Shown piece after piece: positions 34,657-40,139 of a stretch of 64,000 bases of DNA. The number at the start of each line of letters is the position of its first letter. Position 1 is the first letter of the stretch. The notes beneath the pieces were generated by a model. It was not told the origin of the DNA. It was given only the letters and a program-made list of their open reading frames with translations, and ran no database searches. Made by a program: the position numbers and the translations under genes. The stretch comes from Microterricola viridarii (GTDB lineage Bacteria > Actinomycetota > Actinomycetes > Actinomycetales > Microbacteriaceae). Where the stretch lies: NCBI RefSeq assembly GCF_900104895.1, contig NZ_LT629742.1, positions 124,001 to 188,000 of the forward strand. The letters are read 5' to 3'.

Positions 34657-35916
34657 TCATGTGGTGCTCCTTTGCAATGAAACTGGCGACTGAAAATCTG
34701 TGGGGGCGGATGCCGGGGCGCTCTGATAGCGCTCGAGCAGCGACGACCGGCGCAGCACCGCTGCGACGGCGCCGCGGGCCCCGTCGTCGGAGCCGAGGGT
34801 CGCCGCGCGCACGACCGGCTCCGCCTGCGGGATGGGGAGAAGCTCGTAGGCGATGGAGGCGCGCGCCTGGTCGACGATCATCGGTGCGGCGAGCGCGAGC
34901 GGGCCACCGATCACGATCTCGGCCGGGTCGAGCGCGGTGGCGAGGCCGCCCAGCACGCGGCCGACGGCGACGCCAACCTCTCGCAACACGGCGGTGACGA
35001 TGGGGTCGCCGTTCTCGGCTGCGCCCTGCAGGGCGTCCAAGTCGGGGAGGGTGGCCCCGCGGCGGGCGCACTCGGCGAGCACGGCGGGGATCGAGGCGAT
35101 GGTCTCCAGGCAGCCGCGCTTGCCGCAGCGGCAGTCCAGGCCGTCGACGGCGACCGTGATGTGGCCGATCTCGCCGGCGTAGCCGGACGCGCCCGTCTCC
35201 AGGGTGCCGCCGAGCACCAGGCCGCCGCCGAGGCCCTGCGAGAGGCGCAGGTAGAGCAGGCTGGACGAGGGCGTCTGGCCGCCCCAGATCGCCTCGGCGA
35301 GGCCGGCGAGGCGGGCGTTGTTGTCGATGTGCACGGGGGCGGCGAAGCGCTCGGTGAAGCACTGCAGCAGCTCGCGGGCGCCGTCCACCGCGGAGGTGTC
35401 GCGGCGGTCGCGGCCGAGGGCGAGGCGGGCGCCGTTGGCCGAGAAGGGGCCGGGGAAGCCGAGGCCGATGCCCTGGAGGGCGCCGTAGTGCACCTCGTGC
35501 TGGGACTTCAGCCGGTCGAGCAGGGCGAAGGCGATCTCGGCGCGCTCGGTCCAGGCGGAGCCGGTGCCGTAGTCGGCGACGCCGGCGGCGATGATCTGCT
35601 GGCTCGCGTCGACGACGACGGCGTACACGCGGCCGTGGCTGAAGTCGATGCCGATGACCTGGCCGGCCCCGGGGTCGAGCACGAGGCGCTCGGCGGGGCG
35701 TCCGCGGCCGGCGCGCTCCGCGGCATCCGGGGCCACGACGACGATCGCGCGGCGCTGGATGAGCTCGGCCGTGATCTCGGAGGTGGTGGTGCGGGAGAGG
35801 CCGACGCGCTCGGAGATCTCGGCCCGACTGAGGGCGCCGAGCTCGCGCAGGGCACGCAGAACTCGCTCCTCGTGGGTCCTCCTCACGAGGGCATGCGCAC
35901 CTTCGAGCTCAGCCAT
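34657..35916 (-). CDS. ROK-family transcriptional regulator
   Basis: A 419-residue regulator. An N-terminal winged helix-turn-helix ([22 protein letters not shown]) precedes a sugar-kinase-like ROK domain with [16 protein letters not shown] (phosphate-1 loop), the [13 protein letters not shown] Asp region, the ROK signature [23 protein letters not shown] (in pieces) and the [10 protein letters not shown] zinc cluster. ROK repressors usually sense sugars. Lying first in the ABC-sulfatase cluster, it hints that the imported compound may be a sulfated sugar. Confidence 0.88.
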
Positions 35917-36000
35917 GCCTGAAACCCTAAGTGAGCTTATTTTTTCCGTAAACACTCCGGCAAAATTACACGGTGTTTTTGTTACTCATTCGTCATAATT
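35917..36000 (-). promoter_or_regulatory. AT-rich promoter/operator region of the ROK-ABC operon
   Basis: This is the only strongly AT-rich stretch nearby, with an A/T run at 35937-35952 (TTATTTTTTCCGTAAA on the plus strand), like the T-rich sites bound by NagC/ROK repressors, and a TAATTT -10-like box on the minus strand. Inferred from composition and position. Confidence 0.35.
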
Positions 36001-36022
36001 GCCGGCGGAGAACGGCAGGTTG

Positions 36023-36079
36023 CGCCAGTTCGGCCGGGTCTGCGCCAGCTCAGCTGGCGCAGGCCCGGCCGAACTGGCG
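36023..36079. terminator. 28-bp-arm palindrome after the thioesterase gene (CGCCAGTTC family, copy 4)
   Basis: Arms 36023-36050 and 36052-36079 pair with one mismatch (G-T). It shares the GCGCCAGCT-C-AGCTGGCGC core with 30122-30180. It lies 25 bp after the thioesterase stop and upstream of the ROK promoter, so it would insulate the two transcription units. Confidence 0.7.
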
Positions 36080-36103
36080 TGGACGCATCGGAACGGGGTT
36101 CGC

Positions 36104-36664
36104 CTAGCTCCAGACGGAGGGCGCCTCGGCACGGGTGGCCGGCAGAGCGACATCCGGGGCCCAGCGCAGCAGCCACTCGGGCAGCTCCATCTCATCCGGC
36201 ACGGCACCGACGGCCTCGAGCAGCTCCTCGATCGGCACGACGCCGCCGCTGCGCTTGAGGAAGCGCCCGCGGATGAAGCCCTGGGCGTAGATCTCGGGGT
36301 TGCCGTCGGCATCGGGGCGCACGAAGCGCTGCTCGACGTAGACGGCCTTGTCGTCGAAGCCGAGGATGCGCGACTCGATCGTGAAGCGCTGCCACGGCTC
36401 GAGCGACTTGCGGAAGCTGATCGTCTCGGCGACGACGACCGGGTACCAGCCGCGCTCCTTGAAGATCGCCCAGACGCCGTTGCGCACGAGCATGTCGAAG
36501 CGGGCGACGTCCATGATCGACAGGTAGACGCCGTTGTTCATGTGGTTCAGGATGTCGAGGTCGGTCGGCAGCACCCGGAAGTTGGTGTGGGCGACGTCGT
36601 AGTGGCCGAGGCGCGGCTTGCGCCGCGAGAACACCAGCATGTGCATCATCGTGCGGAAGAACAT
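36104..36664 (-). CDS. Acyl-CoA thioesterase (hot-dog fold, 4HBT/FcoT-like)
   Basis: A 186-residue thioesterase. The region VLPTDLDILNHMNNGVYLSIMDVARFDMLVR (pieces DLDILNHMNNGVYLSIMD) is the 4HBT active-site helix with the conserved Asp and His-Met-Asn-Asn-Gly. The later VEQRFVR strand and the C-terminal tail fit thioesterase-like (THEM6-like) proteins. Start choice is uncertain: ATG 36664 has GTGAGG nine bases upstream; ATG 36670 and an upstream GTG-like extension to 36703 are possible. Substrate unknown. Confidence 0.8.
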   Translation of the reverse strand: MFFRTMMHMLVFSRRKPRLGHYDVAHTNFRVLPTDLDILNHMNNGVYLSIMDVARFDMLVRNGVWAIFKERGWYPVVVAETISFRKSLEPWQRFTIESRILGFDDKAVYVEQRFVRPDADGNPEIYAQGFIRGRFLKRSGGVVPIEELLEAVGAVPDEMELPEWLLRWAPDVALPATRAEAPSVWS

Positions 36665-36816
36665 GTGCATGCGCCTCACGCTATCTGCGAGGTGCAGATT
36701 CACCGGAATCTGTTGTGCGAATCCTCAAAGCCCGCGCGCCTCCGATCTGAGGCGAGAGCCTCACGCCCTGCGCCACCGCACTCGCCATCCGGCCCGCCGG
36801 CGATGCGGCCTCCCCG

Positions 36817-37893
36817 TCATTCGGAAATCTTCACCAATGGAGCCTTGCGGAGAAGTAGCCTCTTCACCCCCGTGGCATCGAATCGGACCGACGCTATCCG
36901 GTTGAGCTCTGTGCCATCCACTTTAAGAACCGTTCCTACCCCGAGGGTGTCGTGCCGCACCAAGTCGCCATGTGCCAGCTGGATCGTTTCCAACTCGTAG
37001 CGTCCAGGATTCGGAGCGACTCGCCGCTCCTCGTGCCACTCAAAGCTGCTCTGTTGGTCAACTTTTGCGATAGACGGCGGAAACTTTGAGAACAGAGGAG
37101 AAAGCAGCATCGCTGGGTACACGACGAGGATGAAGACGATCCCAAACCCTCCAACTATGAGGTTTACGATCCGCACGCCCTCAGCGTTTTGATTGGAGCG
37201 CGCTTCAAGCCCAACCACCTGTCCGAGGTCAATGTCTAGAAACGGTAGGACTGCTGGTCCGAGGATCATGAGCCCAGAAAGCAGCAACATCGCCAGCAGC
37301 CATCGGCGGCCCTGATAGACATCGCCGAATCGAGCCTTCATCGGCATTTGAGCCCGCGCACGCGCACGAGCGCTAAGGCTGATTCCAGTCACCTCACGCA
37401 AATCGCCACCTTTGAGAGTGCCGGTAAGTATTGGTGGCGAATTCTCCTCATGCAGGATTTCGACGATGAACCCATCCTTGGGGTCGAGGAAATCGAAGCC
37501 GAGAGTTGCAACGTTCTTGGAAGCCCCCTGATTCACTCGAACCGAGGGTTGAATCTGCGAGCGACTCATTGCCACGACACGTGCAGAAAGCACCGAATCT
37601 CCCAGTGAGAGTTCGATTCTCAATGGATCCACGGCAGTCAAGTCGCTCTGCCGGACAGTGTCGCCTCGCTTTTGCCAAACGCCGACGTATGTGCGACAGA
37701 GGCGCTGCAATTTGGCACCTCGAAACGTCAGCCCAAGCCCTCCGCTGACGAGTGAGTCTTCGGGCGCGATCAACTCCTCTTGGTCTATCGCGAAGCGCAA
37801 GTCCGGGCGCTGCTTGTTCCGTCTACCGAGTATCCATGCCACTGGTATGCCAACCACGAACAGCACGATTGTTAGCCACTCTGCAAACCCCAT
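36817..37893 (-). CDS. Membrane protein with a C-terminal PcrA/UvrD-type Tudor-like domain
   Basis: A 358-residue protein of unknown function and clearly lower G+C than its neighbours. Helix 1 spans residues 3-23. A soluble domain follows (about 30-180), including RLCRTYVGVWQKRGD and DPLRIEL, a pattern I recall from uncharacterised one-helix proteins. Helices 2 (197-218) and 3 (242-264) come next. Residues about 305-356 read HGDLVRHDTLGVGTVLKV...SVRFDATGVKRLLLRKAPL, which closely resembles the small Tudor-like domain ending PcrA/UvrD helicases, where it contacts RNA polymerase. No helicase motifs are present. Start ATG 37893 after GGGGG. A repeat fragment lies at its 5' side. Probably horizontally acquired. 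Confidence 0.72.
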   Translation of the reverse strand: MGFAEWLTIVLFVVGIPVAWILGRRNKQRPDLRFAIDQEELIAPEDSLVSGGLGLTFRGAKLQRLCRTYVGVWQKRGDTVRQSDLTAVDPLRIELSLGDSVLSARVVAMSRSQIQPSVRVNQGASKNVATLGFDFLDPKDGFIVEILHEENSPPILTGTLKGGDLREVTGISLSARARARAQMPMKARFGDVYQGRRWLLAMLLLSGLMILGPAVLPFLDIDLGQVVGLEARSNQNAEGVRIVNLIVGGFGIVFILVVYPAMLLSPLFSKFPPSIAKVDQQSSFEWHEERRVAPNPGRYELETIQLAHGDLVRHDTLGVGTVLKVDGTELNRIASVRFDATGVKRLLLRKAPLVKISE

Positions 37894-37997
37894 TAAGTAC
37901 CCCCAAACACGCAACCAATGCGCATGATTGGAGCTTAGTGGCGACTCCAGGAGCAGCCCGGAGATGTGACTCGAGCCCAGCTCCGCAGTGTCCGGCC

Positions 37998-38029
37998 GAT
38001 ACGCTCGTTCCTCGCTACCCGACCAGCGG
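37998..38029 (-). repeat. Half of a module-B intergenic repeat
   Basis: The stretch beginning GATACGCTCGTTCCTCGCTA is the reverse complement of the left arm of module B (compare 16063-16098) with one mismatch; the right arm is absent. It lies between the atypical membrane protein and prpC, at a composition boundary, and may be a relic of a rearrangement. Confidence 0.8.
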
Positions 38030-38041
38030 AGGTGGAGCCAG

Positions 38042-39163
38042 CTACGCCGGCAGCTCCCGCTGGTCGACGCCGTTGTACACCGACAGCGGCCGGATCAGCG
38101 CGTTGGACGCGAGCTGCTCCATCACGTGCGCCGTCCAGCCGACGACGCGGGCGGCCACGAAGATCGGCGTGAACGTCTCGGTGTCGAAGCCCATCAGGTG
38201 GTAGGTCGGGCCGGCCGGGTAGTCGAGGTTCGGCTTGATGTTCTTGCGCGACACCATGGCGGTCTCCAGCGCCTCGTAGAGCTCGAGCATGTCCGGCCGC
38301 TCGTAGTGCGCGGCCATCGCCTCCAGCGCGGTGCGCATCGTCGGGACGCGCGAGTCGCCGTTCTTGTAGACGCGGTGCCCGAAGCCCATGATCTTGGCCT
38401 TGCGGGCGAGGGCCTCCTCAAGCCACGCCTCGGCCTTGTCGGCGGAGCCGATCTCGTCGAAGGTGTGCATGACGGCCTCGTTCGCCCCGCCGTGCAGCGG
38501 GCCCTTGAGCGCGCCGATCGCGCCGGTCACGGCCGAGTAGATGTCGGAGAGCGTCGAGGCGATCACGCGCGCCGTGAAGGTGGAGGCGTTGAACGAGTGC
38601 TCGGCGTAGAGCACCAGCGACACCCGGAACGCATCGACGACGGCCGGGTCGGCCTCCTCGCCGAACGTCATCCAGAGGAAGTTCTGCGAGTAGTCGAGGT
38701 CGGCGCGCGGCTCGACGAGTCCCTGCCCGTGGCGGCGGCGCTGGTCGTACGCGACGATCGCCGGAAGCTGGGCGAACAGGTGCTTCGCCTTGCGCAGGTT
38801 CTGCTCCGGCGCGTTGTCCTCGGCATCCGGGTCATTGGCCCCGATGATGCTGACGGCGGTGCGGCAGACGTCCATCGGGTGCGTGCTGAGCGGCAGGTCG
38901 TCGATCGCGCGGCGCACGTTCGGGGCGAGCGCGCGCGACGCCCGCTCCTCCGCCATGAAGCCGTCCAGCTCGGCACGGGTGGGCAGCTCGCCGTACCAGA
39001 GCAGCCAGGCGACCTCCTCGTAGCTGCACATGGAGGCCAGCTCCTGCACCGGGTAGCCGCGGTAGAGCAGCGAGTTGGTGTCCGGGTTCACCTTGGAGAT
39101 CGCGGTGAAGTCCACAGGCACCCCGGCCAGGCCCTTGAAGATGGTGGGAGTCTCGTCAGTCAT
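38042..39163 (-). CDS. prpC: 2-Methylcitrate synthase / citrate synthase family
   Basis: A 373-residue short-form citrate synthase. Catalytic elements: GPLHGGANEAVM (His), GFGHRVYKNGDSR (His, Arg) and the Asp in the NLDYPAGPTYHLMGF neighbourhood. Short length and linkage to prpB and prpD favour condensing propionyl-CoA with oxaloacetate. The start MTDETPTIFKGL at 39163 is family-like; 76 bp separate it from prpB. Confidence 0.92.
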   Translation of the reverse strand: MTDETPTIFKGLAGVPVDFTAISKVNPDTNSLLYRGYPVQELASMCSYEEVAWLLWYGELPTRAELDGFMAEERASRALAPNVRRAIDDLPLSTHPMDVCRTAVSIIGANDPDAEDNAPEQNLRKAKHLFAQLPAIVAYDQRRRHGQGLVEPRADLDYSQNFLWMTFGEEADPAVVDAFRVSLVLYAEHSFNASTFTARVIASTLSDIYSAVTGAIGALKGPLHGGANEAVMHTFDEIGSADKAEAWLEEALARKAKIMGFGHRVYKNGDSRVPTMRTALEAMAAHYERPDMLELYEALETAMVSRKNIKPNLDYPAGPTYHLMGFDTETFTPIFVAARVVGWTAHVMEQLASNALIRPLSVYNGVDQRELPA

Positions 39164-39239
39164 CGTCGTCTGATTCCTTTGCTCGTGGTGCGGGGGTGGT
39201 GCGGATGTCGCGGCCGGATTCACGCCGGCCCGCAACACA

Positions 39240-40139
39240 CTATTTCGTGACAGTGAAGTTGAACACTCCGGAGTCGAAGTGGTTGTAGCCCTCGTAGTCG
39301 ATCAGCTCGTAGAGGTCTGCCCGGTGCTGCATCTCGCCGAGCAGGGGCTCGAGCGTGCCGGCATCCGTCAGCGAGTCGAGGCCGCGCGCGGTGGCTCCCA
39401 TCGCCAGGCGCAGCATCGACACCGGCCAGATGACCATGTTCATGCCGATGCCCTGCAGCTGCTCGACGGTGAAGAGCTCGCTCTTGCCGAACTCGGTCAT
39501 GTTGGCCAGCAGCGGCACGTCCACGGCCGCGCGCATCGCCGCGAACTCCTCGAGCGAGCGCATCGCCTCGGGGAAGATGGCGTCGGCGCCGGCGTCGACG
39601 AGGCGCTTGGCCCGGTCGATCGCGGCGTCCAGGCCGTCAACCGCGGCGATGTCGGTGCGCGCCATGATGAGGAAGTTCGGGTCGCGGCGGGCGTCGACGG
39701 CGGCGCGGATGCGCTTGATCGCCGTGTCGGAGTCGACGACCTGCTTGCCGTCGAGGTGGCCGCAGCGCTTCGGGTTGATCTGGTCCTCGATGTGCATGCC
39801 GGCCAGGCCGGCATCCTCCATCTCCTGCACGGTGCGGGCGACGTTCATCGGCTCGCCGAAGCCGGTGTCGGCGTCGACGATCGCGGGCAGCTCGGTCATC
39901 CGGGCGATCTGTTTGGCCCGGCCGGCCACCTCGGTGAGCGTGGTCAGGCCGATGTCGGGCAGCCCGAGGTCGGCGCTCAGCACGGCGCCGGAGATGTAGA
40001 CGCCGTCGAAGCCCTTCTTCTCGATCAGCCGGGCCGAGAGCGGGTTGAACGCGCCGGGGAAGCGCAGCAGCTCGCCGCTGGCGAGGCCGGCGCGGAACGC
40101 GACGCGCTTCTCGGCCGGGGTGGTCTGGGCGTACAGCAT
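39240..40139 (-). CDS. prpB: Methylisocitrate lyase
   Basis: A 299-residue lyase splitting 2-methylisocitrate into succinate and pyruvate. The active-site loop is PKRCGHLDGK (KRCGH signature of isocitrate-lyase relatives). Metal-binding Asp residues lie in PAIVDADTGFGEP, and IEDQINPK precedes the loop. Its ATG shares one base with the prpD stop (TAATG), so the pair is translationally coupled. Confidence 0.94.
   Translation of the reverse strand: MLYAQTTPAEKRVAFRAGLASGELLRFPGAFNPLSARLIEKKGFDGVYISGAVLSADLGLPDIGLTTLTEVAGRAKQIARMTELPAIVDADTGFGEPMNVARTVQEMEDAGLAGMHIEDQINPKRCGHLDGKQVVDSDTAIKRIRAAVDARRDPNFLIMARTDIAAVDGLDAAIDRAKRLVDAGADAIFPEAMRSLEEFAAMRAAVDVPLLANMTEFGKSELFTVEQLQGIGMNMVIWPVSMLRLAMGATARGLDSLTDAGTLEPLLGEMQHRADLYELIDYEGYNHFDSGVFNFTVTK

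Follow-up and report, generated by a model that had tools for sequence, protein, structure and literature searches.

Gene locus and protein layout

The window, i.e. the whole 64,000-nucleotide stretch of Microterricola viridarii DNA that was analysed, carries on its reverse strand a gene for a 358-residue membrane protein, here termed P0001, and the features of the gene and its surroundings are collected in Table 1. The start of P0001 is assigned to an ATG preceded a few nucleotides 5′ by GGGGG, and an alternative start is possible at a TTG that lies 21 nt upstream of this ATG. A reading of the sequence alone (the sequence-only reading) had described a three-helix membrane protein with a soluble middle domain, and this layout is borne out by hydropathy for the helices and by the predicted model for the beta domain. 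In the model, helix 1 extends over residues 4–26 with a block pLDDT of 68–81. The same reading had noted the absence of a helicase, in agreement with a score of 26.7 bits to the PcrA equivalog TIGR01073 against a cut-off of 911. Pfam and NCBIfam scans of P0001 likewise reveal no SF1 helicase motor, with alignment limited to the C-terminal stretch, and no Y-family polymerase domain was found in the Pfam scan. The neighbouring genes in the window look like ordinary metabolic genes; between 38042 and 41677 citrate synthase, PrpB-like and PrpD-like genes follow in a row, which from their sequences we take to be a methylcitrate cycle operon. No RNA families were found across 35500–39500.

Table 1. 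Features of the P0001 locus, in window coordinates
Feature	Position	Strand	Basis or remark
Inserted stretch, 1257 bp	36740..37996		BLAST of flanks; 74 nt instead in sister species G182
Dispersed REP-like repeat copy, clipped at the insertion edge	37997..38029		70 further places; longer copy at the G182 empty site
Gene for P0001, 358-residue membrane protein	36817..37893	-	Open frame; RBS-like GGGGG before ATG 37893
First transmembrane helix, residues 4-22, then five K/R	37828..37884	-	Hydropathy and charge count
Soluble beta domain, residues 31-167, Ig-like beta sandwich, family motif FDFLDPKDGFIVEILH	37393..37803	-	Model, family alignment and fold match
Second transmembrane helix, residues 198-216	37246..37302	-	Hydropathy; low-confidence model helix 185-215
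Third transmembrane helix, residues 240-258	37120..37176	-	Hydropathy; low-confidence model helix 237-263
PcrA/UvrD-type Tudor domain, residues 309-355	36829..36969	-	PF21196 above cut-off; predicted fold matches solved Tudors

The C-terminus of P0001 is a PcrA/UvrD-type Tudor domain

The proposal that the C-terminus corresponds to the small C-terminal domain of PcrA/UvrD helicases is upheld by profile comparison, in which residues 309–355 match PF21196 at 2.2e-9 and 37.4 bits (gathering score 23.9), and the last 57 residues by themselves reach 42.2 bits. Within its own genome the Tudor of P0001 finds a match only at the end of the host PcrA/UvrD, a helicase-sized frame (42% identity over 53 residues). 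The final 66 residues were modelled from an alignment with 22 helicase Tudors, giving a mean pLDDT of 83 with values below 50 only in the first 8 residues. Foldseek places the solved PcrA/UvrD Tudors 5dma, 9dqs and 7egs at the top, with E values from 6.6e-5 (5dma) to 2.0e-4. A structural aligner gives Z values of 10.0 (9dqs), 9.6 (7egs), 9.4 (5dma) and 8.4 (7egt, the UvrD CTD with UvrB, 7egs being the UvrD CTD with the RNA polymerase lobe), and the first entries other than UvrD/PcrA appear at Z 7.2. With 5dma the model shares the five-stranded Tudor fold, with an rmsd of 1.1 over 52 residues. A structural check set in advance, in which a missing Tudor fold was to count as refutation, returned the fold, at Z 8.4–10.0 to solved UvrD/PcrA Tudors. 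The Pfam match, the own-genome match and the fold together rule out a chance similarity of the C-terminus.

The gene is a foreign-looking single-gene insertion

In the sister species G182 the flanks are 97.8% and 97.9% identical to the window on the two sides of the insertion, and the gene is absent from all four of the other genomes (species) of the genus, of which G182 is the nearest. The lower G+C noted from the letters alone is confirmed, as the inserted stretch has a G+C of 0.58 vs 0.70 and 0.69 in its flanks. Relatives of the N-terminal part of P0001 (the core, see below) follow this trend in their own surroundings, the core gene having a G+C below that of its own locus in 12 of 13 loci, with the thirteenth, the degenerate L064, left out. 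At third positions the Tudor has a G+C of 0.67, and equal windows of the core span 0.55–0.72; as the value for the Tudor falls within the core range, Tudor and core seem to have come in together as a single unit. Recent capture of the Tudor from the host PcrA was considered and is unsupported (42% identity, compared with 54% to a listed helicase Tudor of G016, with G+C following the core and not the host).

The dispersed repeat that begins at 37997 recurs at 70 further places at E < 1e-5. A half copy of a genomic repeat had been reported just outside the gene; the clipped repeat is real, but it is not a half copy, as full copies read GAGGTCTCGATACG... and the copy in the window starts at CGATACG, ∼7 bases short. 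Beside its longer copy in G182 there is a second repeat, which is missing altogether from the window. No direct repeats bounding the insertion were found, and the sole inverted pair lies within the insertion. The intergenic stretch 36740–38041, from a thioesterase-like to a citrate-synthase-like gene, differs in all five species of the genus compared (L049–L052 and the window), several of which have their own REP-like repeats in this interval, as if it were a site of turnover.

Residues 1–300 belong to a sporadic membrane-protein family

Residues 1–300 of P0001 are characterized by one helix, an Ig-like beta domain with the motif FDFLDPxDG or a variant of it (e.g. FEYIEPRQG) and usually two further helices, an arrangement that defines a sporadic family. 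P0001 itself has the beta-domain motif and three helices. In an alignment of 13 sequences (A6), M1, F133, G141, H148 and G158 are invariant, and a simple hydropathy scan missed one helix in 3 of the 13 aligned members. No model of its own for this core family was found in Pfam, PHROGs or PADLOC. Pfam gave no match above cut-off outside the Tudor in the six core members scanned, P0001 included. PHROGs gave weak single matches for the 13 aligned members, one member each to the holin family phrog_4237 (E 0.0054) and to an unnamed family (0.0079), and the best PADLOC match among the same 13 is a weak one to PbeD (E 0.025, one member). P0001 matched none of the PADLOC profiles at E ≤ 10.

The family is rare, being present in 3 of 394 genomes of a class sample and 2 of 297 of an order sample, with the window's own genome counted in both. 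Within the host's class, core relatives were found in the four genomes G032, G443, G620 and G1037. Plasmids supplied others, with 14 records from Agrobacterium and a single one from Paraburkholderia, and one Sphingomonadaceae and one Paenibacillus genome also have a relative (n = 2, from a genome-contig search that finds close relatives only). Alignment searches detected relatives in seven viral contigs, two of which carry the same protein. When the viral contigs were searched with the single sequence no core relative was returned, and a search with one core member returned only that member and its twin. In 50,697 annotated phage records no core relative was found at E 0.01. In G443 (L063 10813–11396) a 34-bp tandem repeat of 17.2 copies (99% match) lies directly upstream of the core-family gene.

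The beta domain is predicted with block pLDDT mostly of 87–93, falling to 64–66 over residues 41–60. The Foldseek and VIA lists for this domain contain common Ig-like sandwiches (integrin, adaptin mu, CBM2/3 and CLIPPER 9ifr). The beta domain is given no family, since the best solved match, 9ifr, reaches only Z 9.1 and the remainder fall below 8. Among predicted viral proteins the best match, at E 1.8e-9 and 14% identity, comes from ‘virus sp. ctah610’; this protein has 168 residues and is uncharacterised. The CBASS 2TM-beta effector (Cap15-like) combines a cyclic-nucleotide-binding beta barrel with two helices; this type is not among the fold matches listed for the beta domain, which are Ig-like sandwiches.

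The Tudor domain is an addition to the core

The Tudor is absent from all 13 other core members read (L003, L004, L005, L034, L035, L041, L043–L047, L063 and L092), a count that omits the twins L036 and L042, the G620 copy (frame cut) and the Paraburkholderia match, and it is therefore an addition in P0001. In 12 of these 13 members the last helix region is followed by just 8–56 residues. No orthologue of P0001 with a Tudor was found, and the architecture is seen in one genome. PF21196 is matched in 177 of 198 genomes of the phylum (170 over cut-off). Among the matches listed for this phylum sample there are 13 short frames (<600 aa, P0001 excluded), of which seven were examined; none of the seven is a non-helicase carrier, each having helicase sequence inside or beside the frame. 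In 398 genomes of the family the matches listed, except those of P0001 itself and G032, span the Tudor end only and lie mostly in helicase-length frames, with at least four shorter Tudor frames among them left out of the helicase check. Within these listed matches the helicase Tudor closest to that of P0001 is from G016, at 54% identity. A phage-labelled record with a Tudor proved to contain a whole PcrA-like frame, and an Arthrobacter plasmid match was left outside this search for non-helicase carriers. Among the publications listed in literature searches, none describes a membrane protein with a PcrA/UvrD-type Tudor, as far as the listings show.

Membrane orientation of the Tudor domain

The numbers of K/R before and after the helices of P0001 are 0 vs 5 at helix 1, 4 vs 0 at helix 2 and, without a clear direction, 2 vs 1 at helix 3. 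An excess of K/R after helix 1 is seen in 12 of 12 scored sequences (13 given), and several core relatives give mixed counts at the second and third helices. By the positive-inside rule, the charges at helix 1 would place the beta domain in the cytosol. With three helices and a cytosolic beta domain the Tudor would likewise be cytosolic, so that the charge pattern of the sequence suggests a Tudor on the cytosolic side of the membrane.

The binding face and candidate partners in the host

In Geobacillus PcrA, residues H681, W684, K712 and L714 were mutated in RNA polymerase pull-down tests (PMC5397179), and at least four mutations abolish the interaction according to a second study (PMC6511836). 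Counting along the 5dma chain together with the Tudor alignment places H314, L317, K344 and L346 of P0001 at these positions, respectively. Of the four residues probed in those RNA polymerase tests, three (H, K and L) are kept. The aromatic position of the face, W684 in PcrA, is F in 22 of 22 aligned helicase rows and leucine (L317) in P0001, whose Tudor retains F338 as its sole aromatic residue.

The beta hairpin to which the PcrA Tudor binds is marked by the motif [VIL]DxxTGE[VIL][VILT], which occurs both in UvrB and in RpoB, there within the SI1 insert (PMC8318588). In a profile comparison the host RpoB is without profile segment 218–299, which we take to hold the SI1 docking motif, and its sole TGE sits in NAEFMNHLTGEIKT, a poor fit to the remainder of the motif. 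In the host UvrB the corresponding sequence is LHPLTGDVV, which differs from the motif at two positions: H replaces D, and D replaces the glutamate, a residue that cannot be mutated in Bacillus without disrupting binding. The exact Bacillus docking motif is thus absent from host RpoB and host UvrB, the two proteins searched. Judged from these sequences, the leucine at the aromatic position and the missing RpoB segment would both count against RNA polymerase as the obvious partner of the P0001 Tudor. The host RpoB (L093) seems to be without SI1, the segment where B. subtilis has its PcrA docking motif, yet H, F, K and L are all retained on the Tudor of the host's own PcrA.

Ranked first among the readings, with a probability of roughly 0.4, is that P0001 is a horizontally acquired, single-gene membrane accessory protein, possibly a defence cargo, to which a cytosolic Tudor was added that docks on a partner of PcrA. 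The sporadic core, with its helix, Ig-like beta domain and two helices, is probably a defence or lysogeny cargo, and the Tudor would derive from a PcrA/UvrD helicase and have been joined to the cytosolic C-terminus of the core. The Tudor most likely docks P0001 onto a cytosolic protein that is bound by PcrA, the candidates being UvrB and the RNA polymerase beta subunit. Such docking may bring the core, acting at the membrane, to the repair or transcription machinery, or may inform the core of the state of that machinery. The PcrA/UvrD Tudor is a partner-docking module that is known mainly from the helicase, and that a mobile membrane protein carries it suggests some benefit in targeting or monitoring the site to which this module binds.

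Genomic company of core relatives and a possible role in defence

The neighbours of core relatives that were scanned with profiles were picked by hand, and counts from them are not unbiased; the neighbours at L003, L044, L047, L065 and L092 lay outside these scans. On plasmid pAtC58 the surroundings of the relative include a Gabija pair (GajA and GajB) and Qat genes, together with a SIR2-like gene that matches weakly and a gene annotated as a restriction endonuclease. Elsewhere AbiD adjoins the core gene (L046), and the core gene is found near a strong PADLOC candidate, PDC-S19 (L063), an Mrr-type nuclease that matches PADLOC only weakly (L004), a PIN-domain gene (L041), an HNH gene identified by Pfam (L043) and a cytosine methylase (L045). 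Cytosine methylases are often carried by phages anyway. At L036 the one neighbour scanned gave no Pfam match. A defence role of the core family is suggested, as a lead, solely by the placement of some relatives near defence genes.

Two further observations concern these neighbourhoods. On different viral contigs (L041 3169–7233 and L043 3980–6152) the core gene lies between an integrase-like and an HNH gene, assigned mostly by eye, possibly at the same cargo position. Near the pAtC58 relative (L034 12834–14802) the SIR2-like gene with its weak PADLOC match is accompanied by a gene without a PADLOC match whose product begins hydrophobic, and together they may form a further defence pair within this Gabija/Qat region.

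A more specific proposal is that P0001 is a membrane defence effector whose Tudor serves as a sensor on UvrB or RNA polymerase, such that a phage altering or occupying the partner would release the core, with its helices then damaging the membrane. This is consistent with the Gabija, Qat, SIR2-like, AbiD, PDC-S19, Mrr-type and PIN neighbours named above, with the integrase-like and HNH genes that bracket the core gene on the two viral contigs and with the weak holin-family match of one of the 13 core members. It is nonetheless doubtful, as the best PADLOC match among these 13 is the one to PbeD (E 0.025), no base rate stands behind the neighbours, inspection by eye of the ORFs nearest to P0001 in the window revealed no defence gene, and the core of P0001 itself matches nothing in PHROGs at E 0.01. 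In a related form, which we regard as unlikely, P0001 would be a membrane-bound guard, its Tudor keeping a membrane-acting defence core attached to UvrB or RNA polymerase until an invader disturbs the partner and the core is released; if true, this would represent a new sensing of infection via the docking site of a repair helicase.

Competition with PcrA, passenger fusion and DNA tethering

The membrane-anchored Tudor might instead occupy the PcrA site on RNA polymerase or UvrB, blunting PcrA to the benefit of a mobile element. Such a role is possible because in B. subtilis the PcrA CTD on its own wins the competition with the full-length protein for RNA polymerase, and R-loops increase two- to threefold (PMC8318588); K344, moreover, corresponds to the lysine whose mutant, K727A in that study, served as the non-binding control. 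We consider a competitor improbable, as a membrane-bound and presumably scarce protein would be a poor titrant, the aromatic contact is lost and the 13 relatives read are without a Tudor. The prospect is slimmer still that P0001 is a passenger fusion with no present function, kept briefly after insertion: its occurrence in one genome only, the loss of one cage residue and the lack of a sigma-70 promoter-like site in 36600–38150 would fit, but the frame is intact over 358 codons, an RBS-like sequence is present, and the core motif and the remaining Tudor face are kept. Least credible is a Tudor that binds DNA non-specifically and tethers it at the membrane. The E. coli UvrD-CTD does bind DNA weakly (PMC7585439), but aromatic-cage residues take part in that binding; F338 is the sole aromatic residue in the P0001 Tudor, and no DNA binding was seen for the PcrA CTD (PMC5397179).

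Comparison with known systems

The C-terminal Tudor of PcrA/UvrD (PF21196; 5dma, 9dqs, 6yi2, 7egs and 7egt) is homologous to that of P0001, with the same five-stranded fold and three of four binding residues in common; it is carried by a helicase, whereas in P0001 it is carried by a membrane protein and the aromatic contact is a leucine. For the core, the closest counterparts are uncharacterised membrane proteins, one example being WP_010974293.1 of the Agrobacterium fabrum plasmid At, which has the helix, an FDFLDPxxGF beta domain, two helices and positive charges after helix 1. Unlike P0001, it has no Tudor and ends 9 residues after the last helix region. The family to which both belong is sporadic and without a model in the libraries searched, and some of its members lie near phage-defence genes. 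That a PcrA-like Tudor can be present on a non-helicase is known from the Y-family polymerase DinX, in which the domain is designated DUF3553 (PMC6511836). DinX and P0001 are both non-helicases with this domain at the C-terminus, but DinX is a DNA polymerase that forms a defined subfamily, whereas P0001 is a laterally acquired membrane protein seen in one genome, with a new membrane-anchored architecture that joins a known domain to a core for which no library model was found.
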